A stretch of 31,410 bases of DNA from a virus, in the IMG/VR virus record IMGVR_UViG_3300031521_000251, positions 1 to 31,410 of that record; one strand, given 5' to 3'. Shown in pieces: positions 1,697 through 25,967 of this stretch (position 1 is the first letter of the stretch; each line of letters opens with the position of its first letter). Under the pieces are notes generated by a model. The model saw nothing but the letters and a program-made list of their open reading frames with translations. It was not told the DNA's origin and ran no database searches. A program made the position numbers and the translations under genes.

Positions 1697-2491
1697 ATTA
1701 AGAGAGATTATTTTACGAGAATACCAAATCAGTATATTAGGGGAGACATTCGTAAGCTGTACGGTGTGAGCAGGAAGTTCTACATCACTTACATATTGAT
1801 TGACCGCTATCGTTCACTAGAAGACTTTAGCTGGATTACAATCAAAAAGATTCTTAATTATTATGGGCTTAAAAATACAAGAAATAAGCCCAAGGCGTTC
1901 AAAGAGATTTTAGACGTATTGGAGTATATGGTAAACAGTAAAATGATATCCATTGCTCAAGACATTGACTCCATTACATATGATACTGGGATTGAGGTAA
2001 AAATTATTTCAGATAACTTTGACTTCCCAAAAAATTTCTGTAAATTTGATTTTTGTGTGTTTGATAAAATCATGGATTCTGATTCTGCTATAAATAACGA
2101 GACTCTGCTATTGTCGTATATTTATATACTCTCTTATATTGGTGAAAAAAGTGATCAAAGAGAGGGAGAAAGCGATACTGAATATTTGGAAAGGTTGAAG
2201 GAATATCCAAGAGCATTTTTCAGAGATATAGGGAATATGGCAAAAGAATTATCAATGTCAAAGGATACGATAACAAAGTGTATTAATTATTTTTTATCTG
2301 AGCAAATGCTTGTAAAGAAAACGGTTGGTAGTGTAAAGAAAGATGGCAAGCCGCCACAAAATGTCCCCAACATTTATGTATTAAATAATGACGAGTGCCA
2401 ACAAGAAATTGAGTGGGCGTTAGAAAAAATGAAAGAGATTTACAAAGTAGATTATTTTGATGAGATTAAAGGAGGAAACAAAAATCAGTAG
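1697..2491 (+). CDS. Replication-initiator-like winged-helix protein, AUU start
   Basis: A 264-aa protein of two helix-rich halves. The N-terminal half has a conserved-looking basic segment (IPNQYIRGDIRKLYGVSRKF, residues about 9-28) and a first helix-turn-helix region. The C-terminal half holds a second winged helix (about 178-212, MAKELSMSKDTITKCINYF). Two winged helices are the usual design of plasmid/phage replication initiators, so DNA binding at an origin, perhaps the repeats upstream, is likely but not proven. Start: a strong AAGGAGGG at 1682-1689 is followed 7 nt later by ATT (1697), immediately after an in-frame TAA (1694-1696). The first canonical start, GTG at 1766, has no ribosome binding site and would remove the basic segment. 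First gene behind the 1294 promoter. It is a distant paralogue of the C-terminal part of the next protein, which it overlaps by 8 nt. Confidence 0.7.
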   Translation: MKRDYFTRIPNQYIRGDIRKLYGVSRKFYITYILIDRYRSLEDFSWITIKKILNYYGLKNTRNKPKAFKEILDVLEYMVNSKMISIAQDIDSITYDTGIEVKIISDNFDFPKNFCKFDFCVFDKIMDSDSAINNETLLLSYIYILSYIGEKSDQREGESDTEYLERLKEYPRAFFRDIGNMAKELSMSKDTITKCINYFLSEQMLVKKTVGSVKKDGKPPQNVPNIYVLNNDECQQEIEWALEKMKEIYKVDYFDEIKGGNKNQ

Positions 2492-3698
2492 GGGTGTTTA
2501 TAAAATAGAGAATTTACAGAATAAAATGGTTTATATAGGAAGTAGCGGAAATATCGAAAAACGATGGGAAAAGCATAAAACAGACTTATTGCAAAATAAG
2601 CATCATTCATACAAGCTCCAAGAAGCATTTAATGAGTACATGGACTTAAATAATTTTAAATTTGAGGTCGTTGAATTAGTAGATAATACAAAACTTCATT
2701 TACTAAAACGAGAACAGTTTTATATTGATAAATACAATGCGTTTACCGATGGATACAATTGCTGCGAATATTCAATTAATCCAAAATACGTGAAATTCAA
2801 CGTAAAAAAATTGAGAAATAAAAAAACTACGTGTAAATACATAAAAGTGCCACGGGAATTAATATATGCTAATACTATAGGAGATAAACGAATAAGCTGC
2901 TTCTCATATTTTGTTTTTCACACCTGTTTAAACATGCGATCATTTTACAACTGTAATTATCTTATAGAGTGGTGCGGGTTTAAGCCTAAACGAAATAAAG
3001 GAGCTATGAATGATAAGTTTAAACAGGTATTTACTTGGTTCTACGATAATGGGCTAATACATAATTATGATGATTCTAATTATTCAGAAAAAGATTTCAC
3101 TGAAAAGAATACTGTTATTGTGGATCTAAATAGGGATTGGATATTCCCCGAAAAACAGTTTGGAATGGTATTTGATTTCGAAATTGATTTAATAAAGGAA
3201 TATTCAGAAAAGAATCGTCTTCAACTAGATAAGAGGATAACCCACGCCACCGTTCTGCTTGTATTGGCATACATAAGATGTAATATTCGTTATAGAGCAA
3301 TGGAGTGTTATGAATTGGTGTATGAAATTAAAAAAGCCCCGGAGATATTTTACAAGAAATATAATGAGATAGCCATAGATCTTGGCGTACCGGAGAGAAT
3401 TTGTTCAAAATGCGTAGATATTCTATGTGATTTACAGATATTAGAAATGGCAGCAATGCCAAGGTTTAAAGACGACGATGGAAACTGGCATACCGATTCT
3501 ACAATATTCGCAAATAAGTATAAGTATGTCCAAGATAACAAGACCAAAGAACCAGTATTATACGAGGGGTACGATGTTAAGCGAGAAATAAAATATGGTA
3601 AAAAAATAGTTGCATCAAAATCATTTACTAAAGTAAGTAAGAAAAATTATGAAAACATGGAGGAAACAAAAATAAATGAATCAAACGGTAAAATTTAA
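2484..3698 (+). CDS. GIY-YIG nuclease fused to Rep-like protein, AUC start
   Basis: A 404-aa two-part protein. Residues 1-100 form a GIY-YIG nuclease: GVYKIENL then MVYIGSS, an arginine in KRWEKHK, and a conserved glutamate in KREQFYIDKYN. Residues about 115-400 resemble the preceding 264-aa protein: an N-terminal winged-helix block ending in DNGLI, and a second block around EIAIDLGVPERICSKCVDIL. GIY-YIG domains nick or cut DNA in homing or repair; the rest probably binds DNA. Start: GGAGG at 2471-2475 lies 8 nt before ATC (2484). An in-frame ATG at 2457 exists but has no ribosome binding site and lies inside the upstream gene, so AUC is preferred. Homing mobility or a replication nickase are both possible. 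Confidence 0.7.
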   Translation: MSRGVYKIENLQNKMVYIGSSGNIEKRWEKHKTDLLQNKHHSYKLQEAFNEYMDLNNFKFEVVELVDNTKLHLLKREQFYIDKYNAFTDGYNCCEYSINPKYVKFNVKKLRNKKTTCKYIKVPRELIYANTIGDKRISCFSYFVFHTCLNMRSFYNCNYLIEWCGFKPKRNKGAMNDKFKQVFTWFYDNGLIHNYDDSNYSEKDFTEKNTVIVDLNRDWIFPEKQFGMVFDFEIDLIKEYSEKNRLQLDKRITHATVLLVLAYIRCNIRYRAMECYELVYEIKKAPEIFYKKYNEIAIDLGVPERICSKCVDILCDLQILEMAAMPRFKDDDGNWHTDSTIFANKYKYVQDNKTKEPVLYEGYDVKREIKYGKKIVASKSFTKVSKKNYENMEETKINESNGKI

Positions 3699-3900
3699 CA
3701 CGGACTACTCTCTCGCTCGGCTAGAGAGACATAAAGATTTCGCGGGAGAAATCAGCATTGAGAATTTTTGTACATATGAAAACAAGAACAGTGAACCGTA
3801 TTACACAGCAGTCGAGAGATCAAAGTTTAAGAAAAAGTCAAAGAACTCACCAAATAGCAATACTGACAATTTAAATAATGGAGGAATAGAAAATGTTTGA
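3676..3900 (+). CDS. Hypothetical 74-aa polar protein
   Basis: A short, highly polar protein with a basic serine/lysine/asparagine-rich C-terminal third (KFKKKSKNSPNSN) and no membrane segment. It overlaps the end of the GIY-YIG fusion gene by 23 nt and the next gene by 8 nt. ATG at 3676 lies 12 nt after GGAGG (3659-3663), a slightly long spacer. Family not recognised. Tight overlaps suggest translational coupling within the early operon. Confidence 0.55.
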   Translation: MNQTVKFNTDYSLARLERHKDFAGEISIENFCTYENKNSEPYYTAVERSKFKKKSKNSPNSNTDNLNNGGIENV

Positions 3901-4171
3901 AAATGTAAAGAAGGCATTGGGGATCAGATATTATAAGCCAGGAAAAGAATATTGGGTTGATATCGAGAAAATACATATTACACCAGAATTTGCATCTAAG
4001 AAGGTTGGCTGGAAGAAGATGCAGCGTAAGCGAGATTATTTTAGAAATACGGGTAAGTTTGAGAGCAAGGTAGTATTGAATAAAGATTTCGTGCTAGTCG
4101 ATGGGTACTCTACTTATTGTTTGGTCAAAGAGTTTGGACTTGGTAAGCTGGTTGTTTGGTTTGAAGATTAA
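3893..4171 (+). CDS. ParB/sulfiredoxin-like small protein
   Basis: A 92-aa protein. Its middle and end (IHITPEFASKKVGWKK, then tGkFESKVVLNKDFVLVDGY, then GLGKLVVWFED) match the layout of the ParB N-terminal/sulfiredoxin fold: a strand naming positions, 'V..n..LVDGY.Ty.....G', and a final strand. In ParB-like proteins the DGy/DG-R segment contributes to nucleotide binding. It is too short for a ParB with its own helix-turn-helix. ATG has a good GGAGG 8 nt upstream. Role unknown: regulation or partition accessory is plausible. Fold assignment is by pattern only. Confidence 0.5.
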   Translation: MFENVKKALGIRYYKPGKEYWVDIEKIHITPEFASKKVGWKKMQRKRDYFRNTGKFESKVVLNKDFVLVDGYSTYCLVKEFGLGKLVVWFED

Positions 4172-4202
4172 ATAATATTTTAAATATAAAGGAGAAAAGA
4201 TT

Positions 4203-4673
4203 ATGAACATAAAAGAATGGTTAGATAATTTAGATGTTGGATTTGTGACATACGATACCTATTATTCGCAAATTAAATGCTATGCAGGTTTGCCAAAGAT
4301 ACCGAGTGCTTATTTTCTACCATTAGCTGGAGTTGATATTGTAAGTGAAGAATTATGTAAGATGGTTTTGGATTGTTTAAAAGTTGAAAATAAAAAAATA
4401 GATGAGAAGTACACGAAAGAGGAACAAGAAGTTGTTTTTAATCAAGAATTAGACACCGATTGTTTTTTCATACAGTTAAATGCTGGTCAGGTTTTTGACT
4501 TCTGGTTTGGTAAAAAGAAGTATATTGAAAATAACATACTACAGTCTCGTATTGATTGCTTTATTTTTGATTTTTGGAAATATCTAAGAGAGGAAATCAC
4601 TTATAACGAATTAAAATCTTCTGCAAAAGAGTTGAACAATACTTATGAAAAAATATCTTTGGAGGTGAATTAA
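4203..4673 (+). CDS. Hypothetical 156-aa protein
   Basis: A soluble acidic protein with many aromatic residues (FDFWFGKKKY, FIFDFWKYL) and a helical C-terminus. No family recognised. ATG at 4203 follows AAAGGAG at a normal distance. Its last codons contain the Shine-Dalgarno (GGAGG 4661-4665) of the RNA polymerase gene, whose AUA start follows its stop by one base, so translation of the two is probably coupled. Confidence 0.6.
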   Translation: MNIKEWLDNLDVGFVTYDTYYSQIKCYAGLPKIPSAYFLPLAGVDIVSEELCKMVLDCLKVENKKIDEKYTKEEQEVVFNQELDTDCFFIQLNAGQVFDFWFGKKKYIENNILQSRIDCFIFDFWKYLREEITYNELKSSAKELNNTYEKISLEVN

Positions 4674-4674
4674 A

Positions 4675-7443
4675 ATAGCAAAACAGCAGTCATGTCATAA
4701 ATTTATATATAAATTACACAGCAAAAGATTAAAACGCTCAAGGTGGAAGTTAGATCTTCCACTCCGAGTTGCAATGAAAAATGAAAAAGATATAGTGGCT
4801 TTAAATGATAGTCAAATTTTAAGGTGGCTTTGTGAGTTGAATGGAATTGAGAATTTAGATGAAAAAGTTGCTGAAATAAAGGCAAAATTAAGGCACATTA
4901 GGAAAGAACCAAAGAGTAATCAAAATAAAATAAAAATTGAAAAACTTTACGAAGAACTTTATTCTCTTCAGTATCAAAAGGATTATATGTGTTTAATAAT
5001 GGATAGTGATGGAGACTATGACAGGGCTAATTCAGGATTTAAAATTAATGGATATTCTTATCAGAGACTTCTCGGCACTAATGGTGGAATTAAAAAATCA
5101 ACCATAACTTACATAGGAGAGAATATTATTAAAGAAATACGTAAACGCATGGACAATGGTAGAGATAAAACTAAAGAAATTGTTCCCGCAAAATTGGAAG
5201 CGTATCAAGCATTAATTTGTAGTGGTTCAATTCCCGTAACAAAACCGAGAATATTAATTGTAAATGATTGTAATGTGACATTTAAAGAAAACGTTATAAA
5301 AATAAACGATGAGCACGACGGAGAACCCATATTATCATATGAAAAAGATTATGATATAGAGTATTGTGACTCTGATGGATACGGATTAATGTCTCCGGAA
5401 TATTCAAAAATTGTAAATAAAGATTTATATGGAGAAGATTATGAAGATCAGACTATTTCGGGAATTAATACTCGTTATGCTTGGACTAAAGGAATGTTAT
5501 TTACTTTTGATTTTGTTGAATTTGCAAAAGTGATTAACGATGAAACATATATGACACAAGATGCGTGGAGAGAATGGAGAGACGTTAGAGATTATGATGT
5601 TATACTCACCACGTCAATGGTCAAATTATGGGATTCTTATAAGAGTTTGGAACATTTTATTGAATGCTGCGATGAAAATCATTACCAATTTTCTGTATCA
5701 AAAGCCACTCCTCATACTCTCGAAAATGTAAGAAATTCAAATTACCAGTTTTTACAGACATATAATTTTACCGACAGTGATTTGAACGCCATCTGCAAAC
5801 CTACAATTGATGAAATTACAGATGTTCTATGTGGAGATTGGAGGAAAACAATAGTCTTTTTAAATGGGATGTATTTAAGTGATGAAACTATCGACTTTGT
5901 GGATAATGATTTTGTTAAAGCCATTATGATAGATAAGCGCTTACTTAGTGATCCATTTGTAGTTAGTAAAATTCACGGAATGATCAAGAAGCGGATTCAG
6001 ATGGCATCAAAAGGATCTATTCAGCTTTCCGGTAATTATGCGATAGTTTCTGGAGATCCATACTCTCTTGCTCAATCAATATTTGGATTGCCAATTACTG
6101 GGTTATTAAAGGCCGGTGAAGTATATCATAAATATTGGATAGACAGGGGGGTTAGAGAAATAGCTTGTTTCCGTGCGCCAATGACCTGCCATAATAACAT
6201 TCGTAAGAGAAATGTTGTACACAACGAAGATATGGATTTATGGTATCAATACATAACAACTGGAATTATCCTAAATTCATGGGACACAACTTGTGACGCT
6301 TTAAATGGAGCAGATAAAGACAGCGATGCCTTTTTTACTACAGACAATGAAATTATTATTAAAAATACCTTAAATTCGTCTACTATTGAATGTATGCAGA
6401 GAAAAGCTAAAAAAATTGTCCCAGAAGAGTCTGATATGGTGCGTGCTAACAAGTTAGCCTTTGGTGATGAAATTGGTTCAACAACTAATAAGATTACTTC
6501 AATGATTGAATTACAGTCGCAGTTTAATGAAGAAAGTACCGAATATAAGACGCTAGAGTATAGAATCATGTGTGGTCAACATTATCAGCAGAATTCAATT
6601 GATAAGGCAAAAGGTATCATAGCAAAACCAATGCCAAAATATTGGTATGATAGAGTCTCTTGTAATAAACTTCCGGATTCAACGCAAGAAGAAAAAAACT
6701 TTAAAGAACTCTGTCTTAAAATTGTTTCTGATAAAAAACCATACTTCATGAGGTATATTTATCCGGAATTAATGGCTGAATATAATAAATATATAAGAGA
6801 CACCAATAACAAATGTATCAGAGAATTTAAAATTTCACTATCTGATCTAATGTCAAAACCTGAGAAGTCGGATGAAGAAGATATTTTTATTCAGTACTAT
6901 CGTAAGTTTATGCCGGTTGGAAATAATCAATGTACAATAAACCGAATTTGCTATTTGTTTGAAGATAAGTTTAAGGAGTATATTGGTGATTTAAAAACGT
7001 CATCAGAGTTTGACTATTTCATTTTAAAGTCTGGAGTTGAGTATAGTAGACACGATTATAAAAAAATCGAAAAAATTAAATTGGAATACGATGATTGCGT
7101 TAGGAATTATCAAAAACTTGCAAACAGACAACGATTGGATAAAGACGAGCTTGGTTTAACCAGAGAAATTATGTTATTAAACTTCAAATCTACTTGCGAA
7201 ACAATCTGCTCTAATCAAAAAGAACTATGTGATATTGTATTGGATTTATGCTATTCAAATTCAAAATCGAAGCAATTTGCATGGGATATGTGTGGAGATG
7301 TAATAATAGAAAATCTTCTTAAAAAGAATAATTTCACTATTAATTATCCATTAAAGGTTGATAAAGACGAAGAATTTAAGTTTATGGGAGAAAAATTTGT
7401 AATGCGCAAGAAAAAATATAAGGGAGGCGATGAATTATTATAA
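4675..7443 (+). CDS. QDE-1/YonO-like single-subunit RNA polymerase, AUA start
   Basis: A 922-aa protein that matches, block by block, the double-psi-beta-barrel polymerases that include eukaryotic RNA-dependent RNA polymerases (QDE-1, RDR) and the phage DNA-dependent polymerase YonO. In order: SDGYGLMSPE near residue 234 (family DG.G.mS), a WTKGMLFTFD block near 268 (family KGv), CFRAPMTCHNNIR near 499 (family R.P..hp.diR), and NGADKDSDAFF with aspartates D547, D549 and D551, the metal-binding DxDxD triad. Usual motif is DxDGD; here glycine is serine. It probably transcribes phage genes; template type (DNA or RNA) cannot be told from sequence. Start: GGAGG at 4661-4665, ATA at 4675 after a 9-nt spacer, TGA in frame at 4666. 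The first ATG (4774) has no ribosome binding site. Confidence 0.82.
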   Translation: MAKQQSCHKFIYKLHSKRLKRSRWKLDLPLRVAMKNEKDIVALNDSQILRWLCELNGIENLDEKVAEIKAKLRHIRKEPKSNQNKIKIEKLYEELYSLQYQKDYMCLIMDSDGDYDRANSGFKINGYSYQRLLGTNGGIKKSTITYIGENIIKEIRKRMDNGRDKTKEIVPAKLEAYQALICSGSIPVTKPRILIVNDCNVTFKENVIKINDEHDGEPILSYEKDYDIEYCDSDGYGLMSPEYSKIVNKDLYGEDYEDQTISGINTRYAWTKGMLFTFDFVEFAKVINDETYMTQDAWREWRDVRDYDVILTTSMVKLWDSYKSLEHFIECCDENHYQFSVSKATPHTLENVRNSNYQFLQTYNFTDSDLNAICKPTIDEITDVLCGDWRKTIVFLNGMYLSDETIDFVDNDFVKAIMIDKRLLSDPFVVSKIHGMIKKRIQMASKGSIQLSGNYAIVSGDPYSLAQSIFGLPITGLLKAGEVYHKYWIDRGVREIACFRAPMTCHNNIRKRNVVHNEDMDLWYQYITTGIILNSWDTTCDALNGADKDSDAFFTTDNEIIIKNTLNSSTIECMQRKAKKIVPEESDMVRANKLAFGDEIGSTTNKITSMIELQSQFNEESTEYKTLEYRIMCGQHYQQNSIDKAKGIIAKPMPKYWYDRVSCNKLPDSTQEEKNFKELCLKIVSDKKPYFMRYIYPELMAEYNKYIRDTNNKCIREFKISLSDLMSKPEKSDEEDIFIQYYRKFMPVGNNQCTINRICYLFEDKFKEYIGDLKTSSEFDYFILKSGVEYSRHDYKKIEKIKLEYDDCVRNYQKLANRQRLDKDELGLTREIMLLNFKSTCETICSNQKELCDIVLDLCYSNSKSKQFAWDMCGDVIIENLLKKNNFTINYPLKVDKDEEFKFMGEKFVMRKKKYKGGDELL

Positions 7444-8201
7444 TTTTAAATGAAAAAGAGTATATCGAAAACGCATTATCTACAGGAGATATTGAAATTA
7501 ATAGAATCAATATGATTTTAAGCATGTTATCCAGATATTATTATCACGAGTTTGGATATGGAAAACAAAAAATTGTCAACGAATTGAATTTATTTATGAA
7601 CCAAAATTATCCAAGATATAACCCTATTAACTGGACGGAATATATAGAGAAATGTGCTAATCACGCAAAAAAATATCCACTATGCGAGTGTGAGGGGGTA
7701 TGGATTACATCAAATGAATTAAAAACAATTGAAGGTATGCATAATAAAGTGATGGAGAGGCTTGCTTTTACTCTCCTATGTCTAGCCAAGTTTAAAAATT
7801 TTAGAAATCCAGAAAATAATGGATGGGTAAATAATGAGGATAGCGAGATCTATAAACTCGCTTGCATTACAACTACTGCATTTGATAAAGGAATACGATT
7901 CTGCCAGCTAAAAGAACTCGGATTAATAAAATATGCAAAGAAAATAAATAATTTAAATGTGCAAGTTTTATTTGTGGACGAAGAAGGAGAAAAGAAACTT
8001 TTTATTAATGACTTTCGTAAGCTTGGATATGAATGGAGATTATATAAAGGAGAAAATTATATTAGGTGTACAGATTGCGGAATATTAACTAAAAAAACTA
8101 GTAATAGTAAAAAATACTGTTCATATTGTTCAAAGTTAAATACTTCAAGTAATAAATATTTGTGGGATATTAATAATAGAACTGGAATTTCCGAAAAATA
8201 G
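7434..8201 (+). CDS. Zinc-ribbon protein following the polymerase, AUU start
   Basis: A 255-aa protein with a long helical body and a C-terminal zinc ribbon (CTDC near residue 213, then CSYC near 226). Family not recognised. It overlaps the polymerase gene by 10 nt, so the two are probably made in a fixed ratio and may work together, for example as a transcription partner; that is inference. Start: GGAGG at 7423-7427, then ATT at 7434 (6-nt spacer) or ATT at 7437 (9 nt), directly after an in-frame TGA. No ATG, GTG, TTG or CTG occurs in frame before ATG 7512, which lacks a ribosome binding site and would remove 26 residues. Confidence 0.65.
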   Translation: MIIILNEKEYIENALSTGDIEINRINMILSMLSRYYYHEFGYGKQKIVNELNLFMNQNYPRYNPINWTEYIEKCANHAKKYPLCECEGVWITSNELKTIEGMHNKVMERLAFTLLCLAKFKNFRNPENNGWVNNEDSEIYKLACITTTAFDKGIRFCQLKELGLIKYAKKINNLNVQVLFVDEEGEKKLFINDFRKLGYEWRLYKGENYIRCTDCGILTKKTSNSKKYCSYCSKLNTSSNKYLWDINNRTGISEK

Positions 8202-8220
8202 AATCTTCTAAAAAAGCTCC

Positions 8221-8246
8221 AAACCCCTTGATTTTACTAGGGTTTT
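8221..8246 (+). terminator. Weak terminator-like hairpin
   Basis: AAACCC (8221-8226) pairs with GGGTTT (8240-8245) across a 13-nt loop, 20 nt after the end of the zinc-ribbon gene. Only a short T run follows, so termination would be partial. Confidence 0.4.
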
Positions 8247-8395
8247 AGACCATTGTTTTAAAACTGTAATTTTCTTAATATGGATATACATATAACACAA
8301 ACGATTAACGTTGTTTTCATATTCATTTCACTTTTCTCTCAGTGGCTTTACTTGCGTAATGCAGGTATGGTCACTGAATTTTTCTCAAACCATAT
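8247..8395 (+). other. Gene-free stretch upstream of tRNA
   Basis: No ORF is supported. It holds the palindrome GTTTTAAAAC (about 8255-8264) and a nested hairpin: CAGTG (about 8340-8344) with CACTG (8372-8376), enclosing ACTTGC/GCAGGT around a 5-nt loop. This is possibly a processing or promoter-proximal structure for the tRNA transcript. No clear promoter seen. Confidence 0.35.
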
Positions 8396-8466
8396 TGCCT
8401 CTTAGTGTAATGGTATCACATTAGAATTTGACTCTAATAATGTCAGTCCGACTCTGGCAGAGGTAG
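8396..8466 (+). tRNA. tRNA-Gln (anticodon TTG)
   Basis: A complete 71-nt cloverleaf without an encoded CCA end. Acceptor stem TGCCTCT (8396-8402) pairs with AGAGGTA (8459-8465) with one G-T pair; the discriminator is G (8466). The D arm is a 3-bp GTG/CAC stem (8405-8407, 8417-8419) with a GG-containing loop. Anticodon stem TTAGA/TCTAA (8421-8425, 8433-8437) encloses ATTTGAC, giving anticodon TTG at 8428-8430. The T arm is GTCAG/CTGGC (8442-8446, 8454-8458) with loop TCCGACT. The weak U1-A72 pair and G73 are known glutamine identity features. The T loop has C at position 55 instead of the usual U. It reads CAA, a favoured codon in this AT-rich genome; it is not a stop suppressor. Confidence 0.88.
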
Positions 8467-8467
8467 C

Positions 8468-8485
8468 TACTCTCCTACTAAGGAG
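8468..8485 (+). promoter_or_regulatory. Hairpin directly after tRNA
   Basis: TCTCCT (8471-8476) pairs perfectly with AGGAGA (8481-8486) around the 4-nt loop ACTA, two bases past the tRNA. It contains TACTCTCCTA (8468-8477), a 10-mer that recurs at 13031 and 16321. It could stabilise the tRNA 3' side or mask the AAGGAG for a downstream frame. Confidence 0.4.
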
Positions 8486-8515
8486 AAAATTTCATCAAGG
8501 AAGAAGGTCATTACT

Positions 8516-8704
8516 ATTTTACAGATTTCTCAAAAGGAAGCAAGATATCTCGAATCAAAAGGATTAAAGTTTGGAACAAATTCATATGGAGCAATTCATC
8601 GATCATATTCAGGTCATCACAAATACTGGTGCACAGAATCTGAAGAGGCAAAAAAGTTACTATTTGAGTACCGCAAGTCCTGTATTGTTAAAACAGTCAA
8701 ATAA
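8516..8704 (+). CDS. Small 62-aa protein with AUU start
   Basis: The frame has no ATG, GTG, TTG or CTG anywhere. Starting from ATT at 8516, 8 nt after a purine-rich AAGGAAGAAGG (8497-8507), it gives a well-composed 62-aa protein: QKEARYLESKGLKFG, then HRSYSGHHKYWCTESEEAKK, then a basic end. This looks like a small phage protein with a beta hairpin followed by a helix. A gene finder needing a usual start would miss it. It sits between the tRNA and the PIN-PhoH gene and ends 26 nt before that gene's start. Function unknown. An overlapping second frame starting ATC is less protein-like. Confidence 0.55.
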   Translation: MLQISQKEARYLESKGLKFGTNSYGAIHRSYSGHHKYWCTESEEAKKLLFEYRKSCIVKTVK

Positions 8705-8730
8705 TCTTAAAGAGAAAGAGGGTCTTCATT

Positions 8731-9960
8731 ATTAAATTCTATGATACAAATGCTATTTTAGAATTACAAGACAAAATTACAGAAGATAGATTTGCGTTGT
8801 CTTCCACTACTCTGTTTGAACTAGAACATATTAAAGTTTCAAAAAATAAGGACGAAGAAATTAAATATCGTGCAAGAAAAGCAATTCATATTTTAGATGA
8901 AAATTCTGATAAATATAAAGTCGTAATATTTAATGACGACATATCGGCTGTGTTGAATGATTATACGCTTGAAAACACTCCTGATAATCAGATATGCGCC
9001 TGTGCTAAATATCTAAGTGAAAAAGAAAATATTGTTTTCGTAACGAATGATATCTGCTGTAGGACTATCGCTAAAAATGTATTTGATTTAAAATGTGAAT
9101 CAGTGAAGAAGAATGAAGAAATAGAATATAAAGGATTTTTAGAAAAGTCATTGCCTGAAAAGGAAATGGCTTATTTTTATGAAAATATTACAGAAAATAT
9201 TTATAATTTATTTACAAATCAATATCTTGTAATAAAAGATTTAGATGGAAACGTTGTTGATAAATTTAGATGGAACGGAGAAGAATATCAAGCTATTGAG
9301 TTTCCAACAGTTAAATCAGTCTATTTTGGGGCTGTTAAACCACTTAACGGAGATATTTATCAACAAATGGTTTTGAATAGTTTATATGCAAACCAGATCA
9401 CGATGATTAAAGGTGCTGCTGGCACCGGCAAATCGTATTTAGCTATTGGATACTTTATGTATTTACTTGAAAAGAAAAAAATAGATAAGATTGTAGTATT
9501 TTGCAACACCGTCGCTACGGTTAATTCAGCGAAACTCGGATATTATCCTGGATCAAAAGATGAAAAATTATTAGATTCTTCTATAGGTAATATGCTATCC
9601 GCTAAACTAGGCGATGCCTTTGGTTTGTTTGATATGGTAAAACAGGGCAAAATTCAGTTGCTTCCCTTGTCTGATATTCGTGGATTTGATACGAATGGCA
9701 TGAATTGCGGTGTTTATATAACCGAAGCCCAGAATATGGATATATCTCTTATGAAACTTGCATTACAGAGAATCGGAGAAGATTCAGTGTGTGTGATTGA
9801 TGGTGATTACCATGCGCAGGTCGACATGTCTCAGTATGCTGGTGCAAACAACGGCATAAGAAGAATGTCTGAAGTATTTAGAGGACAAGGCTTTTATGGC
9901 GAAGTTGAATTACAAAACATTTACAGATCTCGGATTGCAGCAATTGCTGAGTTAATGTAG
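8731..9960 (+). CDS. PIN-PhoH2-type nuclease/ATPase, AUU start
   Basis: A 409-aa protein. The N-terminal PIN ribonuclease domain opens KFYDTNAILEL, with the metal-binding aspartate at residue 5. The C-terminal PhoH P-loop ATPase domain has Walker A GAAGTGKS (228-235) and a Walker B-like VYITEAQN (328-335), where PhoH proteins usually have DEAQN; aspartate is replaced by threonine but glutamate is kept. PIN-PhoH2 proteins act as RNA helicase-nucleases. Start: AGAGGG at 8717-8722, then ATT at 8731 (8-nt spacer; ATT 8728 is also possible). The first canonical start, TTG 8797, would delete the PIN active-site aspartate, and no canonical start exists upstream in frame. This is the strongest evidence for AUU initiation. 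Confidence 0.85.
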   Translation: MKFYDTNAILELQDKITEDRFALSSTTLFELEHIKVSKNKDEEIKYRARKAIHILDENSDKYKVVIFNDDISAVLNDYTLENTPDNQICACAKYLSEKENIVFVTNDICCRTIAKNVFDLKCESVKKNEEIEYKGFLEKSLPEKEMAYFYENITENIYNLFTNQYLVIKDLDGNVVDKFRWNGEEYQAIEFPTVKSVYFGAVKPLNGDIYQQMVLNSLYANQITMIKGAAGTGKSYLAIGYFMYLLEKKKIDKIVVFCNTVATVNSAKLGYYPGSKDEKLLDSSIGNMLSAKLGDAFGLFDMVKQGKIQLLPLSDIRGFDTNGMNCGVYITEAQNMDISLMKLALQRIGEDSVCVIDGDYHAQVDMSQYAGANNGIRRMSEVFRGQGFYGEVELQNIYRSRIAAIAELM

Positions 9961-9969
9961 AGGTAAAAT

Positions 9970-10140
9970 ATGAATACGAAATTAATTTTCAAGACTTATT
10001 TAGCTAGAAAATTATTGCAAATGGGCAATCAAATGGTAGACATTAAGCCAGATAAGAACAATACAATTAAAACAATATTTATTTTTGAAGAAACCGAAAA
10101 ATTAAATAATGATTTAACTACTCTTCTATCTGTTGAGTAG
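9970..10140 (+). CDS. DUF5659-like small protein
   Basis: A 56-aa protein, MNTKLIFKTYLARKLL..., then GNQMVDIKPDKNN..., then IFIFEETEKLNNDL. It has the layout of DUF5659, a small fold frequent in Firmicute phages and mobile elements (a 'coming-back' strand, 'G.....i.p...n....vF.F......'). Function of the family is unknown. ATG has TAGAGGT a few bases upstream, right after the stop of PIN-PhoH. Its final codons form the left arm of a terminator. Confidence 0.65.
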   Translation: MNTKLIFKTYLARKLLQMGNQMVDIKPDKNNTIKTIFIFEETEKLNNDLTTLLSVE

Positions 10141-10147
10141 TTTTTTA
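10116..10147 (+). terminator. Intrinsic terminator
   Basis: AACTACTC (10116-10123) pairs with GAGTAGTT (10135-10142), followed by a T tract (10141-10146). The left arm is coding sequence of the 56-aa gene. It would separate the polymerase/PhoH group from the homing endonuclease gene. Confidence 0.7.
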
Positions 10148-10183
10148 TTGTAAAAACTGAAAAGAATAAAAGAAAGGTACAAA

Positions 10184-11200
10184 GTGAGCAATTTAAATTA
10201 CTGTGTTTATATACATACTAACAAATTAAATAGTAAAAAATATATTGGAATATCATCCGATGTCAAACAAAGATGGAAAGGTAATGGAAGTTCGTATTAT
10301 GATCAAGTTATTGGATTGGCAATAAAAAAATACGGATGGAATAATTTTGATCACGATATAATATATAGTGGATTGTCTAAGGAAGAAGCTTGCGATAAAG
10401 AGAAAGAATTAATATTAAAATATAACACTAGAAATAAAGAATTTGGTTATAATCGTTCCGATGGTGGAGATTGCGGATCTAAAGGGTCGTATGAATCTCA
10501 GCTAAAAAGAATACGCAAAGTATATCAATACGATATAGAAGGGAATTATATTAAATGTTTTAACAGTATCCCGTCGGCAGTTCGTGAACTCGCGCCACAT
10601 TTGAAAAATTCCGGAAATATTCCGTCATGTTGCAAGGGTACACGTCCAGTGGCTTTTGGGTATAGGTGGTTTTATGATTATATGGGTGAGAAAATAGATT
10701 CATTAAAATCTAAGCATGAACGCATTTCTGAAAATAAATCTATTAAAATATACCAATACACCCTATCTGGAAGTTTTGTAAGAGAATATAAAAGTATATC
10801 GGAGGCACAAAGAAAATTTGGAACAACATCTATACGACAATGTAGCAGCGGTATTTGCAAAACATCGCATGGATATCAATGGTTAAAAGAATATATGGGA
10901 GAAAAAATACCCGCTATATTAAGTACCGCCCAAAAATCTTCCATTCGAAATTCAAAGCCACTATATATTTATGACATCGATTTTAAATTGGTGTATAAGT
11001 TCAATAAATGTAAAGATGCTTCAAAATTTTTAAAAACTTATAACTCAAAAATTAAAAAATATTGTGATAACAATTTATTATTTGATGGAAAATATTATGT
11101 TTCGTACGAAATAAAGGAACATTTGAGAAAAGCAATATCAAAAAACGATAATACATATAAGGTAATCTGCTCTGAAAAAGATATGATTATCAATTTATGA
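10184..11200 (+). CDS. Free-standing GIY-YIG homing endonuclease with NUMOD1 repeats
   Basis: A 338-aa protein. Residues about 5-95 form the GIY-YIG nuclease (CVYIHTNKLNSKKYIGISSD, QRWKGNG, EACDKEKELILKYNT, GYNRSDGG). Three DNA-recognition repeats of NUMOD1 type follow: VYQYDIEGNYIKCFNS near 112, IYQYTLSGSFVREYKS near 188, and a degenerate LYIYDIDFKLVYKF near 265, the first two ending in GY.W. This is the classic design of free-standing phage homing endonucleases, which cut an uninfected relative and copy themselves in. GTG start with GAAAGG 6 nt upstream. It has its own terminator just before it, as expected for an inserted gene. Confidence 0.88.
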   Translation: MSNLNYCVYIHTNKLNSKKYIGISSDVKQRWKGNGSSYYDQVIGLAIKKYGWNNFDHDIIYSGLSKEEACDKEKELILKYNTRNKEFGYNRSDGGDCGSKGSYESQLKRIRKVYQYDIEGNYIKCFNSIPSAVRELAPHLKNSGNIPSCCKGTRPVAFGYRWFYDYMGEKIDSLKSKHERISENKSIKIYQYTLSGSFVREYKSISEAQRKFGTTSIRQCSSGICKTSHGYQWLKEYMGEKIPAILSTAQKSSIRNSKPLYIYDIDFKLVYKFNKCKDASKFLKTYNSKIKKYCDNNLLFDGKYYVSYEIKEHLRKAISKNDNTYKVICSEKDMIINL

Positions 11201-11219
11201 TGAAAGAAGGTAATTGCTT

Positions 11220-11453
11220 ATGATGTATTTACTATTTGGTATAGTTATAGGAATTATAGTATCTCCCTTCGTAGACGGATTATCTGATACTGTTATTTTA
11301 TGGATCGAAGTTCTTAAAATGAAGCCATCTCGCATCATCTCTGATTGGAATAAAGAAATGGGTAAAGATGAACCAGCTATTGATACTTATGCAATCGGAT
11401 TTCAAGCACCAAATGGTGAAGAATGTGACGATGACGATTTCGACGAAGATTAA
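11220..11453 (+). CDS. Small membrane protein with acidic tail
   Basis: A 77-aa protein with one N-terminal membrane segment (LFGIVIGIIVSPFVDGL), a short amphipathic stretch, and a very acidic end (ECDDDDFDED). ATG at 11220 lies about 9 nt after AAGAAGG. Function unknown; it may anchor a complex to the membrane. Confidence 0.6.
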   Translation: MMYLLFGIVIGIIVSPFVDGLSDTVILWIEVLKMKPSRIISDWNKEMGKDEPAIDTYAIGFQAPNGEECDDDDFDED

Positions 11454-11584
11454 TTTTTTTATTTATTTTTTTACTTGTTTTTATCGCATACTTCTACGTT
11501 TATCATTATATCTCACTAAATACTATTCGCACAATAGTAAAAGTTTACAATAATAAATCAAATAATTTGGAGGTTTTTAACAAT

Positions 11585-11779
11585 ATGGTTACTCATAAAG
11601 ATACAGAGTCCAAGGTTACTTCTGGTAAAAGAAATATTTTGATTAAAGGCGTGTCCATTAAAGATGGGTTATTGGTTGACGAAAACGGGTCTATCGTACC
11701 AGATCTTGAAAAGAATCTTCCGGATTGGGTTACGGAATTTGATATGAAAATTAGTATTGAGCTTCCAGACGAAGAATAA
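11585..11779 (+). CDS. Hypothetical 64-aa phage protein
   Basis: A small polar protein with a strand-rich middle (NILIKGVSIKDGLLVDENGS) and an acidic end (ISIELPDEE). I do not recognise the family. ATG at 11585 lies 11 nt after TTGGAGG. The frame stays open upstream to 11456 through a hydrophobic stretch, so a membrane-anchored longer form is conceivable, but no ribosome binding site supports it. It lies immediately before the phosphoesterase gene. Confidence 0.6.
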   Translation: MVTHKDTESKVTSGKRNILIKGVSIKDGLLVDENGSIVPDLEKNLPDWVTEFDMKISIELPDEE

Positions 11780-11796
11780 GAAGGGTGGGGACAAAT

Positions 11797-13011
11797 ATAA
11801 ATAATCAAGCGTTGATACAGCCAAATGAAACCCCAAAGTCATACAGAATACGTTTATATAAAAATAGGGAACTGTATGGATTATCAAATACCGAAATCGG
11901 CAAGTTATGTAATGAAGCATTTGGTGTTGATTGGGATGAATCGGCTCATCGTAAGAAAACAAAAAATTATCTTGACGGGTATGGTGATGCAAAGGCTGAA
12001 AATGCCACGCCCGATAAGCAATTACAAAGTATGATCGAGGAAAATAAAACTTTAAAGCGTGAAGCACAACGTGAACTTATGAAGGTTCAAACGGAAAAAC
12101 TTGAATATGCTCGTTGGCAGCGTGAACTTGCAAGAGATGAATTATTTGAAGAAAAGGTCATTCAGGCAATCAGAAATAATACGGAAGTGATTGTTCCTAA
12201 AGACATTCCGATTGTACATAATAAACGCGCTGGTCAGTTAAACTTTGCAGACTCTCACTTTGGAAAAGAGTTTAAAATATTTGGGCTATTTGATGAAGTG
12301 ATAAATGAGTATAGTCCTGAAATTTACTATTCCAGAATGGAAGAAGTATACAATCAGACAATTGAGATAATTGAAAAAGAGGAGCTATCTGAAATCCACA
12401 TTAATAATTTAGGTGATCACATTGAAGGATTCATCAGGCATTCTCAATTATGGAGTTTAAGATATGGCGCTGTTGACAGTGCTATTATTTTTGGCAATTA
12501 TCTTGGCAATTGGCTCAATAAACTATCTGCTAACGCAAATATCATTTACCATCAAACGGACGGAAATCACGACGAATTTAGGCTTTTAGACGGCAAAAAG
12601 AATGAGCATTTGTGTGATACGGCAGGTAAAATAGTCAAAAATTGCATTGTCACAAAGAACGAAGGTAATCCAAATTTTAAGTATGTAGAAAATAAAACTG
12701 GATTTATCTTTGATACCATTGCTGGGTATAATGTGCTTGGAATTCACGGAGAAGTGCCAAATCTCGCTCAAGCGTTAAAAGATTTTTCAGAAATTTATGA
12801 TGTACGGATTGATTATATAATTGGTGGACACAAGCATCGCAATGATTTTATTAACTGCGGAGCTAGAAAAGGTGCCATGACAGTTGGATCAATTGTTGGA
12901 AGTGATGATTTTTCTATGAGGATTAGAAAATCGGCTGATGCTTCGGCTTCATTTGTAATTTATGAAGAAGGAAAAGGTAAGGTGTGTGAACACATAATTA
13001 TATTAAATTAG
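11797..13011 (+). CDS. Calcineurin-like metallophosphoesterase, probable AUA start
   Basis: A 404-aa protein. The N-terminal 130 residues form a helical/coiled-coil region. The C-terminal metallophosphoesterase domain shows all metal-binding blocks in order: FADSHFGKE, NLGDHIEGF, TDGNHDEF, GIHGEV and GGHKHRN. Such phage enzymes hydrolyse phosphoester bonds in DNA, nucleotides or proteins; substrate unknown. Start: ATA 11797 follows GGTGGGG (11784-11790) by 6 nt. The in-frame GTG at 11785 lies inside that ribosome binding site with no room for another, and TTG 11812 is too far. AUA is preferred but less certain than at other genes. Confidence 0.8.
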   Translation: MNNQALIQPNETPKSYRIRLYKNRELYGLSNTEIGKLCNEAFGVDWDESAHRKKTKNYLDGYGDAKAENATPDKQLQSMIEENKTLKREAQRELMKVQTEKLEYARWQRELARDELFEEKVIQAIRNNTEVIVPKDIPIVHNKRAGQLNFADSHFGKEFKIFGLFDEVINEYSPEIYYSRMEEVYNQTIEIIEKEELSEIHINNLGDHIEGFIRHSQLWSLRYGAVDSAIIFGNYLGNWLNKLSANANIIYHQTDGNHDEFRLLDGKKNEHLCDTAGKIVKNCIVTKNEGNPNFKYVENKTGFIFDTIAGYNVLGIHGEVPNLAQALKDFSEIYDVRIDYIIGGHKHRNDFINCGARKGAMTVGSIVGSDDFSMRIRKSADASASFVIYEEGKGKVCEHIIILN

Positions 13012-13078: not shown

Positions 13079-13360
13079 ATGAATAAAACAGAGTTGGTGA
13101 CAGAACTGGCAAATAGAATCGGATCTACAAAAATTGAAGCAGAAAATATATTAAAAGCGTTTGCTGATATCACAACTGAAGAATTAGTTGCGCATAATAA
13201 AGTTACTCTTCCTGGACTCGGCACCCTTGAAACTGTTGAAGTTGCCGAAAGAAGCGGAATTATCCAGATGGGTGATAAAAAGGGTGAGACATATACTACT
13301 CCTGCCCATGTAAAACCTAAGTTTAAACCAACAAGCGCATTAAAAGATGCAGTTAAATAG
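13079..13360 (+). CDS. HU-family DNA-binding protein
   Basis: A 93-aa protein with the full HU layout: MNKTELVTELANRIG helix, LKAFADITTEEL helix, VTLPGLGTLETVEVAERSG strand (usual 'G.F' is G.L here), then the arm and a C-terminal helix (KPKFKPTSALKDAVK). HU proteins bend and compact DNA and assist replication and recombination; here it may serve the nearby integrase. ATG after AAAGGAG. Confidence 0.92.
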   Translation: MNKTELVTELANRIGSTKIEAENILKAFADITTEELVAHNKVTLPGLGTLETVEVAERSGIIQMGDKKGETYTTPAHVKPKFKPTSALKDAVK

Positions 13361-17648: not shown

Positions 17649-18662
17649 TTGGCTCAGATTAAATCAAAAGAAGAAGTTATTCGTGAGTCAATGAACTCAT
17701 CAAAAAGGATAGACACAAGTATTTCATTTAATATACCTAGAAGTACACAATTGTTTGACGCAACTAAACATCAATATAAATGCACCTGTTGTGGGAAAGG
17801 CTTCTCAACTCAAAAAAATAATTTTCAAAAATCAAATAGCCCATTATTCCAGTCAAGCGATGGTTATTTACCTTGGTGCAAAGAGTGTTCTGATAAGTAT
17901 TATCTTCTGTTATGTGCTATGTACACAGGAAATCAAGAACATGCAATAGAGCATTTTTGCCAGCAAGCCGATTGGGTGTATGAGGAAAATCCGCTGATAG
18001 CCGCAAAAGAATATGAATCTGGACATCAAGACAGAACAAGGCTTTCACATTATGCTGCAAAAAAGAACTTAAACTGCGAAGGAAGAAAAACATATATAGA
18101 CACATTAAAATGTAATTACGAAAGAAAACAAGGGGAAGTTGTCCAAACCAAGGAAGATGTTAAAACTAAGGATCTTTCAGTTACCGCGTCTGCTGTTGAT
18201 AGGTGGGGTGTTGGGTTTACAGAGTTAGATTATAAAAATCTTGATGATCACTACAGAATGCTTAAAAAGAACAATCCAAACGCAGATAATAATCAGGAAA
18301 TATTTATTAAGTCATTATGCAACCTTAATATGCTTATGGTTAGATCTTTACAGGGGGGAGATTCTAAAGAATACACGACTCTTGTTGAGCAATATAGTAA
18401 GACATTCAAACAAGCTGGATTAAGAACCGTAGAGGAAAAAGATGCAAGCAATGATGAAACATTTTGTATGACATTAGGATTTATTTCTGAATATACTCCA
18501 GAAGAATTTTATCTTGATAAGCAGTTATATAACGATAATGATAAAATTGGTGAGTACGTTGAAAGACATATTACTAGACCGATGATTAATTTGGAAACTG
18601 GTAGTGATGTTAGAGATAAAGAATTTTTCGTTCCAGATGGTGATGACTATGACGAAGAATGA
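17649..18662 (+). CDS. Probable terminase small subunit
   Basis: A 337-aa protein directly before TerL, overlapping it by 14 nt. It has a zinc-ribbon (YKCTCCGKGF near 47, LPWCKECSDKY near 84), a central helical region and an acidic end. The position is that of a terminase small subunit, which recognises the packaging site, and zinc-ribbon TerS-like proteins occur in Clostridia phages. I infer the role mainly from context. Start: TTG at 17649, behind AAAGGAGGTG; earlier in-frame starts would put the ribosome binding site inside the gene. Confidence 0.6.
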   Translation: MAQIKSKEEVIRESMNSSKRIDTSISFNIPRSTQLFDATKHQYKCTCCGKGFSTQKNNFQKSNSPLFQSSDGYLPWCKECSDKYYLLLCAMYTGNQEHAIEHFCQQADWVYEENPLIAAKEYESGHQDRTRLSHYAAKKNLNCEGRKTYIDTLKCNYERKQGEVVQTKEDVKTKDLSVTASAVDRWGVGFTELDYKNLDDHYRMLKKNNPNADNNQEIFIKSLCNLNMLMVRSLQGGDSKEYTTLVEQYSKTFKQAGLRTVEEKDASNDETFCMTLGFISEYTPEEFYLDKQLYNDNDKIGEYVERHITRPMINLETGSDVRDKEFFVPDGDDYDEE

Positions 18663-20463
18663 TTTAGAACAATATGCCGACAATAACCAACTTGAATTAT
18701 ATAAAAACTTTCCTTCTACTCACTATCTTAGCAACAAAAACAATGTGTTACATGTTTTGGCGTGGGGGTCATTTTTCCGTCGGAACATGCATCGATTTGT
18801 AATCGACTACTTGAAAATTTCGCTTTACGAGTACCAGGCTATTGCTATTTATATGATGGGAGTATCAAATCTAATATGTATTATTGCAAGCAGAAACGAC
18901 GCAAAATCTTTTATTGTTGCAGTATATGCAGTTGCGAGGTGTTTACTTTACAAGGGAACAAAGTTTAGGATAGGTGCCGCGACCGAGAAACAAGCAAAAC
19001 TAATTGTATCTGAGAAGATTATAGATGAGCTATGTGATTGGTCGCCAATACTCAAAAAAGAGATCGAATCATATGGGATTAGAAGCAATGACATTTTTGT
19101 AAAATTCCGCAACGGTTCAAAGATAACAGTATTTGTCGCAAATGAAAACGCAAGAGGTTTACGATCAAACGCAATCGCAAGAGAAGAATGCCGACAGATT
19201 AAGAAAAAGGTTGAAGACTCTGTAATTTCTCCATTCCAAACGCCTAGAAAACCAAAATATATGCTCAAAGACTATTATAAAAACATTCCGGTTTTAAAAG
19301 AGGAACCAGTTGATGTCTATATTAGTTCTAGTTGGTATGATGACGGGAACTGGATGTGGGACATTTCGGAGCAAGCTTTAGATGCAATGAAAAAGCATAA
19401 AGGCGGTGTAATGCTTGCGTTTGACGAAAGTATTACATTAAAACACGATTTAAAGACAATTGATCAGTTAATAAAGGAAAAGAAAAAGCAAGATCCTGCC
19501 ACATGGAAAATAGAGTTTCTTAATCTAAGGGTTAGGGAATCTACTTCTGCTTATTTTACATACGCGATGCTTATGAAAAGACAGGTATTAAAACATGTGT
19601 TTTATCCAAGAAAAACTGAAGATGTTAGACTTGGAAAGAAGAATAAATTCTCAATACAAAAATTAGATAATGAAGTAAGAGTTATTTCGTGTGATATCGC
19701 ATTTGTAGCTGGTGCAAAAAATGACAATTCTGTATATAGTTTTATTCGAGGTATTCCAGAAACAATGACTTATGTTAATGCCGACGATACTATTGAAGTG
19801 TCTAAAGGATACAGGAGGCAATACCCATACATAGAATCTAATCAGATCGGCGACACAACACTTCAAGCAATAAGAATACGTCAATTATTTGAAGATACTA
19901 ATTCTGATTATATTGTATTGGATTGTCGCAATGGAGGGCTTCAGATTTTGTATACTCTTCAAAAGGTTTTATATGATGAAGAACGAGGTATAGAATACAA
20001 GCCGATATGCTGTATGAACAATGATGAATATTCAAAAACTTGTTCAGATCCAAACGCAAAGAAATGTATATATGCAATTAATGCAACACAGAGTTTAAAT
20101 AGCGATATTGCTATGGCATTTAGAAAGAATCTTAACGAGGATAAAATTGATTTTCTTGTTAATTATAATGTCGCAAAAGAAGATATCCTCTCATCAAATA
20201 AAGAGTATATGGAAACAATTAATTTAGACGAGCAAATCGAATTCGAAAAACCATTTTTAGAAACACAGGCGATGATAAGTGAATGTGCAGAACTCCTTTA
20301 TGAAAAAATGCCACAAACCGGAGCAATTAAAATATATGAACAAGGGAGTAAAAGAAAAGATAGATATACCAGTTGCTCATACGGTTCGTATTTTTTAGAT
20401 CAATTAGAACTAGATATCCAAAATATGAATGCCGACTATGAATTTCTACCACTATACAATTAA
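18649..20463 (+). CDS. terL: Terminase large subunit
   Basis: A 604-aa packaging motor. The N-terminal ATPase has a deviant Walker A (IASRNDAKSF, K86) in which the usual glycine is alanine, followed by a Walker B-like segment (RGLRSNAIAREE, E179/E180). The C-terminal RNase H-like nuclease has VISCDIAFVAG (D349) and a second acidic block, YIVLDCRNGG. It translocates DNA into the prohead and cuts it. ATG at 18649 follows GGTGATG within the end of the upstream gene. Length and gene order are as expected. Confidence 0.88.
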   Translation: MTKNDLEQYADNNQLELYKNFPSTHYLSNKNNVLHVLAWGSFFRRNMHRFVIDYLKISLYEYQAIAIYMMGVSNLICIIASRNDAKSFIVAVYAVARCLLYKGTKFRIGAATEKQAKLIVSEKIIDELCDWSPILKKEIESYGIRSNDIFVKFRNGSKITVFVANENARGLRSNAIAREECRQIKKKVEDSVISPFQTPRKPKYMLKDYYKNIPVLKEEPVDVYISSSWYDDGNWMWDISEQALDAMKKHKGGVMLAFDESITLKHDLKTIDQLIKEKKKQDPATWKIEFLNLRVRESTSAYFTYAMLMKRQVLKHVFYPRKTEDVRLGKKNKFSIQKLDNEVRVISCDIAFVAGAKNDNSVYSFIRGIPETMTYVNADDTIEVSKGYRRQYPYIESNQIGDTTLQAIRIRQLFEDTNSDYIVLDCRNGGLQILYTLQKVLYDEERGIEYKPICCMNNDEYSKTCSDPNAKKCIYAINATQSLNSDIAMAFRKNLNEDKIDFLVNYNVAKEDILSSNKEYMETINLDEQIEFEKPFLETQAMISECAELLYEKMPQTGAIKIYEQGSKRKDRYTSCSYGSYFLDQLELDIQNMNADYEFLPLYN

Positions 20464-20480
20464 GGAGGTGATATCGCAAA

Positions 20481-22169: not shown

Positions 22170-22179
22170 GAGGTAGAAA

Positions 22180-23346
22180 ATGATTAAATTTGAGCTGTCA
22201 AGCAAAAAGCCGGTCAATGGCAAAAAATACTTCAAGGCTATATTACATGAGATATATCCAGATGATTCAGTAGTTAACGAGACTGGCACTCTATATAACG
22301 ACAATGGAATTACATATCTCGAAAAATACACAAGGATGCAATTGGATTCAATTCAAAACATGTCAATAACTGTAGAGTTTACTAATGATCAAAGAACAGA
22401 AATATACGGACATGGACTTACTGATATTGAAGACGGAATGCCAGTTTTTAGAAACGCTACAATGATTGGTAATTTTACCAATGGTTATATAGATACTGTC
22501 AATATTGATGGAGAAGATAAGCGAGTATGTATCGGAGAAGGATATCTTGATTATCAGAGATATAAGGATTTTATAGATATACTTGAAGAACGCTTATCTG
22601 AAGGAGAGCAACCAAAAGGAAGTGTAGAGTTTTCTCATAAAGAAGGAAAAGAATCAATTGGATATCTTTATGGTTGGAAAGAAAAGGGAAGAATTCCCGT
22701 CGACTATGACTATACTGGCTATGCAATTCTCGAAATTAGACCATCAGATGAAGTTGCCACAATTGTAGAAATAAATGAAAATAAAAAAAATAAGGAGGAT
22801 TATTCAATGGATGAGAAACAGATGGAACAGCTCATCGCTAATGTGAAGAGTGCTGTAGCTGAAACTAATTCTAAGAATTCCGAATATGAGGCACAGATTA
22901 ATGAGTTAAACTCTACCCTTGAAACAAAGGAGGCGGAAATTGCAGAACTTAATGCAAAGAATGTCGACGTAGAGGAGAATGTCGGTGCTAAAGATAAGGA
23001 AATCGCAGAATTAAACGCTATGGTAGAAAAAATTACGAGCGAGTTAAACGAGTGTAAGAAAGAGAATGCTGTAAATGAGTTAAACTCAGCTCTCGTTAAT
23101 TTTACAGACGATGAAAAGAAAGTCGCAGAAGTAGAAATTAATTCATTTAAAGAGGATTTTAATAGCACCTCTGTTGATGTTATTGTTACTAAAATCAACG
23201 CTGCTATTGGAGCAAAAACAAAAGAATCTCAGATTGCTGAAATTAATTCAGCAAAAGAACAAATTAAAACCGAAGATATTTTCGGTTTCGTAGACGAAGC
23301 AGATACAAATGCTGAAATAGTTGATCTTAACGGTATGTTTGAATAA
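22180..23346 (+). CDS. Prohead protease fused to scaffold
   Basis: A 388-aa fusion. Residues 1-200 form the protease part, with candidate catalytic H in EIYGHGLTDI and S in GSVEFSHKEG. Residues about 205-330 form a long coiled coil (EQLIANVKSAVAETNSKNSE, repeated EIAELNA segments), typical of internal scaffolding proteins, rich in E, K and N. In HK97-like phages the protease removes the scaffold and then itself during maturation. ATG after AGGAGG; the stop is shortly before the next ribosome binding site. Confidence 0.78.
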   Translation: MIKFELSSKKPVNGKKYFKAILHEIYPDDSVVNETGTLYNDNGITYLEKYTRMQLDSIQNMSITVEFTNDQRTEIYGHGLTDIEDGMPVFRNATMIGNFTNGYIDTVNIDGEDKRVCIGEGYLDYQRYKDFIDILEERLSEGEQPKGSVEFSHKEGKESIGYLYGWKEKGRIPVDYDYTGYAILEIRPSDEVATIVEINENKKNKEDYSMDEKQMEQLIANVKSAVAETNSKNSEYEAQINELNSTLETKEAEIAELNAKNVDVEENVGAKDKEIAELNAMVEKITSELNECKKENAVNELNSALVNFTDDEKKVAEVEINSFKEDFNSTSVDVIVTKINAAIGAKTKESQIAEINSAKEQIKTEDIFGFVDEADTNAEIVDLNGMFE

Positions 23347-23365
23347 TAAAAGGAGGATTTATATT

Positions 23366-23824: not shown

Positions 23825-23841
23825 TTAAAAATAATTTATTC

Positions 23842-23868
23842 AAGACACTCAAACGGGTGTCTTTTTTA
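23842..23868 (+). terminator. Intrinsic terminator before major capsid gene
   Basis: AAGACAC (23842-23848) pairs with GTGTCTT (23857-23863), followed by a T run to 23867. It sits within the structural operon, so it probably reduces rather than ends transcription, or the capsid gene has its own promoter. Confidence 0.75.
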
Positions 23869-25957: not shown

Positions 25958-25967
25958 GGGGTGCAAT

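Follow-up and report, generated by a model that had tools for sequence, protein, structure and literature searches.

We analyzed a 31,410-nucleotide window that is the whole of the IMG/VR virus record IMGVR_UViG_3300031521_000251 and that comes from a Lachnospiraceae-type phage. A preliminary description had proposed that seven of its genes, all on the + strand, begin at AUU, AUA, or AUC codons (hereafter AUH) behind strong Shine-Dalgarno (SD) sites, and all seven codons and SD sites were found at the coordinates it gave. The relatives that we compared support six of these starts (1697, 4675, 7437, 8516, 8731, and 11797), while the AUC at 2484 is ambiguous. SD strength was computed as the energy of the duplex with the 16S tail, and starts were judged by these energies and by homology. 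The energies are -14.9 (1697), -12.0 (2484), -15.2 (4675), -15.2 (7437), -9.8 (8516), -10.9 (8731), and -12.2 (11797) kcal/mol. Nearby in-frame canonical codons (ATG, GTG, or TTG; hereafter NTG) have no comparable SD. The observation as a whole holds, with 2484 as its weak member.

A megablast search of the window against phage records gave no match. Of the relatives identified by scans of viral sequences, G001 (55 kb) and G011 (123 kb) are close and the others are more distant. The group is a family of gut phages, SPbeta-like in having a YonO-type RNA polymerase (RNAP), and the relatives are found in Lachnospiraceae and other Clostridia. A genome scan yielded 80 RNAP loci, mainly in Lachnospiraceae, other Clostridia, and Paenibacillus.

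Genes with proposed AUH starts

First, the open reading frame (ORF) at 4675..7443 encodes, by sequence and predicted structure, a single-chain phage RNAP of the YonO/QDE-1 type (p4675). It matches YonO of SPbeta at 24% over 527 amino acids (E = 4e-17, pairwise blastp; tblastn also matches), and the catalytic aspartates of its DxDxD motif (D547, D549, and D551) are invariant across 51 relatives. An AlphaFold2 (AF2) model built from 51 sequences has a predicted local distance difference test (pLDDT) score of 89; with 6 sequences, an earlier model reached a poor 53. The model has a two-barrel polymerase fold, for which Foldseek found plant RDR2 (1e-16), QDE-1 (2.5e-14), and gp64 of phage P23-45 (1e-4). 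A profile search of PDB sequences gave none. The start is ATA 4675, behind the SD GGAGGTGA at 4661-4668, with an upstream stop (TAA) at 4671-4673.

The next gene, p7437 (7437..8201; 254 amino acids; phrog_30716), is a neighbor of the RNAP throughout the group. Like the RNAP ORF, it opens shortly after an in-frame TGA (7431-7433 in this case), and its SD is GGAGG at 7423-7427. The preliminary description had left the start at ATT 7434 or ATT 7437. The start codon is ATT in the window and in G012, and G004, G008, and G009 have ATG at the aligned position; this alignment selects 7437 and eliminates 7434.

Two more of the proposed starts align with canonical starts in relatives. The gene for a PIN-PhoH protein (p8731; 8731..9960) begins at ATT 8731 (or 8728), behind AGAGGG at 8717-8722, and the PIN motif xKFYDTN opens right at the start. 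The codon is ATT in the window and in G001, TTG in G002, and ATG in G003; we prefer 8731 over 8728 because it is 8731 that aligns with the ATG of G003. The gene for a phage exonuclease or DNA repair nuclease (p11797; 11797..13011; phrog_284) begins at ATA 11797, behind GGTGGGG at 11784-11790. This start had been listed as less sure than the others, but it is among the better supported: the codon is ATA in G001 and G011 as well, ATT in G013 (at 41% identity), and GTG in G014 and elsewhere. Thus, homologs that start canonically at the AUH residue itself were found for 4675, 7437, 8731, and 11797.

For two other genes, AUH was the only kind of start seen among the close relatives. p1697 (1697..2491; 264 amino acids), a possible replication or regulatory protein, begins at ATT 1697, which is directly preceded by an in-frame TAA (1694-1696) and has the SD AAGGAGGG at 1682-1689. 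G001 (97% identity) and G011 (94%) have ATT as well. Within the first 23 codons, from the ATT to the next in-frame GTG at 1766, 10 of the 11 changed codons are synonymous relative to G001, and likewise relative to G011. p8516 (8516..8704; 62 amino acids) does not contain a single in-frame ATG, GTG, or TTG in the window. Its ATT 8516, behind AAGGAAGAAGG at 8497-8507, is shared with G001 and G011; 8516 is preferred over 8510 because the latter is GTT in G011. Synonymous changes number 11 relative to G001, and relative to G011 they account for 26 of the 35 changed codons. In both genes, the synonymous changes extend right to the AUH codon.

Finally, the GIY-YIG homing endonuclease p2484 (2484..3698) has a possible ATC start at 2484 behind GGAGG at 2471-2475, and its Pfam match begins at residue 4. 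An in-frame ATG lies upstream at 2460, without an SD. Among the relatives compared, no homolog with a canonical start at the ATC residue was found. G001 and G011 do not contain this gene, and the corresponding site there reads GGAGGAAACAAAAATAA-ATG or nearly so. The direct repeat ggaggaaacaaaaat (2471-2485 and 3659-3673) flanks the gene and is present as one copy in relatives without it, so the endonuclease was inserted behind the SD of a resident gene and its own SD is a duplicate of that one. The AUC at 2484 may have arisen as a side effect of the insertion; alternatively, translation may begin at ATG 2460.

Start codons among relatives and in control genomes

Across the RNAP family, the start stays at one position and its codon differs. 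Among 88 relatives, the aligned first residue is encoded by ATG in 34, TTG in 25, GTG in 3, and AUH in 25, with 1 unclear. Among the phages, the codon is ATA in the window, G004/G005, and G006; ATT in G014; TTG in G008, G011, and G012; GTG in G009; and ATG in G007. Of the 17 members of one clade, 16 have AUH (8 ATT, 6 ATA, and 2 ATC) and one has ATG, and the codon changed at least 7 times within the clade. On the whole RNAP tree, there are 7 switches between AUH and other codons, as compared to a mean of 19 and a minimum of 14 when codons were shuffled. More broadly, ATG is depleted in RNAP genes: 48 of 77 have a non-ATG start, versus 199 of 722 other genes (Fisher P = 2.8e-9), and the depletion runs through UUG and GUG too. 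In the p7437 family, AUH occurs in 15 of 89 relatives, and all 15 are at the exact aligned residue even though 17 positions were searched. AUH is thus kept despite divergence, both in these families and in p1697, p8516, and p11797.

Sequencing error can be ruled out, as identical codons are found in independent contigs and in isolate genomes. In particular, the RNAP of C. citroniae starts with ATA, as does p7437 in C. aerotolerans and in Clostridium sp. 12(A).

The AUH starts also exceed the number expected by chance. We counted ORFs whose only strong SD (-12 or below) faces an AUH codon: the window has 4 (0.35 expected), the window together with G001 and G011 has 13 (2.2 expected), and the 20-kb RNAP loci have 27 (6.2 expected). 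At the same threshold, the controls gave 2 versus 1.4 expected in host chromosomes, 0 versus 0.6 in SPbeta, none in T4, and 1 versus 0.09 in PMBT24. Further control counts were 7 versus 6.3 expected for host chromosomes, 1 versus 0.9 for SPbeta, and 0 for T4; we saw no AUH excess in host chromosomes, SPbeta, T4, or an Enterocloster phage. In genes with homologs, the codon class most often seen behind strong SDs close to where homology begins is AUH, at 2.1 times its background rate, while a few rare codon classes reach 1.6-1.9 times background on small counts.

The AUH starts are concentrated in a few families (RNAP, the RNAP neighbor, the nuclease, and p1697), and none was called in the terminase, capsid, or integrase families. 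The median SD energy is -13.1 at AUH sites versus -10.5 at ATG sites, a difference that is partly built in, as AUH calls in this comparison required an SD of -9 or below. Local RNA structure around the start is no different for AUH genes than for ATG genes. Overall, the relatives, the tree, and the chance tests go well beyond the evidence of the preliminary description in supporting its view of the AUH codons as genuine starts that form a set.

Probable weak initiation and its alternatives

Initiation at the AUH codons is strongly supported: comparison among relatives indicates real starts at a conserved position, with strong SDs, in few families. Our best explanation, which we consider probable, is that these are true but weak starts that depend on the SD, are likely to be sensitive to initiation factor 3 (IF3) as infC is, and act as a brake on translation of the phage RNAP and the DNA metabolism genes. 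The strong SD would recruit the 30S subunit; the CAU anticodon of the initiator tRNA would pair imperfectly with AUH in the P site, so that initiation would proceed slowly and IF3 could reject it. The outcome would be low, IF3-responsive output, as at host infC. For the RNAP, a weak start would put a translational brake on late transcription and lytic commitment. Transcription of late genes has been shown for its homolog YonO, in SPbeta (PMC5467207). The genes for the DNA nuclease, PIN-PhoH, and p1697 would share the same brake.

The link to IF3 comes by analogy from infC, which encodes this factor. We read infC in 11 hosts of related prophages, and in all 11 readable hosts, it has an AUH start and a strong SD; these hosts therefore have the cis-acting signal through which IF3 regulates its own synthesis. 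IF3 is known to repress starts of this kind (PMC5472188, PMC13009471), that of infC among them (PMC5472188). With the same kind of start in host infC and repression established elsewhere, IF3 control of the phage genes is plausible. The earlier suggestion that these starts are deliberately kept weak fits insofar as families alternate among AUA, AUU, AUC, UUG, and GUG and the SDs of AUH sites are stronger than those of ATG sites; selection against AUG may or may not be involved.

We also considered whether there is a phage-wide AUH regulon, in which IF3 links the RNAP, its neighbor, and the DNA metabolism genes to the homeostat of host infC. In Lachnospiraceae and other Clostridia, late transcription and the commitment of prophages would then be gated by the ratio of IF3 to ribosomes, which would reflect growth state, ribosome damage, or induction. 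This extension is tentative, and we lean against it.

Several points weigh against IF3-sensitive braking. The support for initiation is comparative. Many close relatives start at an ordinary ATG, which means that not every phage needs strong attenuation. One AUU site in Staphylococcus aureus is independent of growth medium (PMC13009471), so AUH need not mean regulation. In addition, infC is the one gene from which we infer IF3 sensitivity in these hosts. Finally, the single G at the third position among the 17 members of the RNAP clade, as compared to roughly 3 expected, is not significant and fits an unconstrained third base.

This last point bears on the main rival: the starts might be real but without regulatory meaning, if a very strong SD lets ribosomes accept any AUN codon and the third base drifts where the level of the gene product hardly matters. 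Consistent with drift, T, A, and C readily replace one another in the RNAP clade, where G occurs once; SDs are strong throughout; and relatives use ATG, TTG, or AUH alike. However, drift does not readily explain why AUH is confined to the RNAP, its neighbor, the nuclease, and p1697 and is uncalled in terminase, capsid, and integrase, or why the depletion of ATG in RNAP genes includes UUG and GUG (yonO of SPbeta itself has UUG). Nor do the hosts generally tolerate AUH, as their chromosomes have no excess of it. We view drift as a serious but rather unlikely explanation.

A phage-encoded factor, such as an IF3 antagonist or an altered initiator tRNA, could instead relax start selection in infected cells. 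The AUH set is indeed in phage rather than host genes, and the phages have many small genes of unassigned role. But the same phages keep NTG for most genes, and infC shows that the hosts can use AUH unaided. The tRNAs of the scanned viral contigs include no initiator tRNA, although no systematic search was made for a factor, and none at all for IF3 antagonists. An alternative initiator tRNA was rejected because the tRNA-Met(CAT) of G001 and G013 has a paired first acceptor base, which indicates an elongator or Ile2 type. The preliminary description had raised a phage factor; we found no support for one and consider it improbable.

Translational coupling, in which ribosomes that finish an upstream gene reinitiate with lax start selection at an adjacent AUH, would suit 2484, 4675, and 7437, which have an upstream stop within 8 nucleotides, but no upstream gene ends next to 1697 or 8516. 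A nearby upstream stop precedes 43% of 77 AUH starts versus 42% of 551 ATG starts, so we reject coupling as a general cause and consider it very improbable. Least probable of all, the true starts could be NTG codons, with the AUH-SD pairs arising by chance or as decayed remnants: most of the genes do have an in-frame NTG 5-33 codons downstream, and p2484 has ATG 2460 upstream, but relatives start with ATG, TTG, or GTG at the AUH residue itself, the N-terminal codon changes of p1697 are 10 synonymous to 1 nonsynonymous, p8516 has no NTG at all, and residues 8-34 of the RNAP are well-predicted core structure in the AF2 model.

Other features and known systems

The remaining genes of the window provide a contrast. 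The region of terminase, portal, capsid, and tail genes (18649..29657, + strand) uses ATG or GTG, in line with the earlier statement that late structural genes start with ATG, GTG, or TTG. A gene for an HU-like DNA-binding protein (13079..13360, + strand; Pfam) starts with ATG; an HU-like gene follows the RNAP in SPbeta as well (the order yonO-yonN). The tRNA at 8396..8467 (+ strand; ARAGORN and Rfam) is a tRNA-Gln (TTG), not an initiator.

We also noticed several features outside the genes. The motif TACTCTCCTA occurs on the + strand at 7769, 8468, 13031, and 16321 (4 copies versus 0.03 expected) and is also repeated in relatives L063, L091, and L147; three of the copies are shortly upstream of an SD, with which they could pair. 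Ahead of the amidase gene, 15963-16320 is a long non-coding stretch, richer in GC, that looks structured but has no Rfam match. The first 1.6 kb (1-1690) has no evident genes but has repeated GATCTGAATC-like words, and might be a control or origin region. At the other end, 29950-31410 is an element that has perfect 25-nucleotide terminal inverted repeats; its reverse-strand ORFs look IS66-like, and the record ends exactly at its outer repeat. Separately, in a host ORF (L202:1184-2011), an ATT follows a very strong SD (-16.1) and canonical starts are absent, so this may be another host gene with an AUH start.

AUH starts are rare but known, and T4 gene 26 has an internal AUU start. In the literature searched, which excluded most subscription journals, we did not find a conserved AUH set centered on a phage RNAP; as far as those papers show, this would be the first case in which AUH starts form a conserved multi-gene set, one that includes the phage's own RNAP. 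IF3 control of phage development becomes directly testable, with isolates of Lacrimispora and relatives ready for study. Gene callers that allow only ATG, GTG, and TTG are bound to place these starts wrongly and can miss p8516 entirely.

The closest parallel is the AUU, AUA, or AUC start of infC, which is also behind a strong SD (for instance, GGAGGTG-7nt-ATT-AGC in a host versus GGAGGTG-7nt-ATA-GCA in the phage). But infC is a single host gene under IF3 autoregulation, whereas the set described here spans several phage genes within one operon region, recurs in a whole group of phages, and may be repressed by IF3. YonO of SPbeta belongs to the same RNAP family, is also followed by an HU-like gene, and has a non-AUG start, but it is from a Bacillus phage and its start is UUG (TTG) instead of AUH (PMC5467207). 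In Streptomyces, IF3 represses the start of sigR, where a non-canonical codon holds a transcription regulator low, much as we propose for the phage RNAP; there, the codon is GTC, the gene encodes a host sigma factor, and the effect was shown experimentally (PMC5472188). In S. aureus, another Firmicute, ccpN, cvfC1, and citZ have conserved AUA or AUU starts with a strong start-proximal SD, and AUA or AUU starts with an extended SD gave about 10-30% of the output of AUG; these are isolated host genes mapped by Ribo-Ret and not a phage set (PMC13009471). In phages, a single AUU start was described for orf28 of Streptococcus thermophilus phage TP-J34 (PMC3952083), and the announcement of Salmonella phage f18SE lists ten AUU starts without further analysis (PMC4599075). 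These are AUU starts of phage genes as well, but neither case involved a homology test, a conserved set, or a link to an RNAP.

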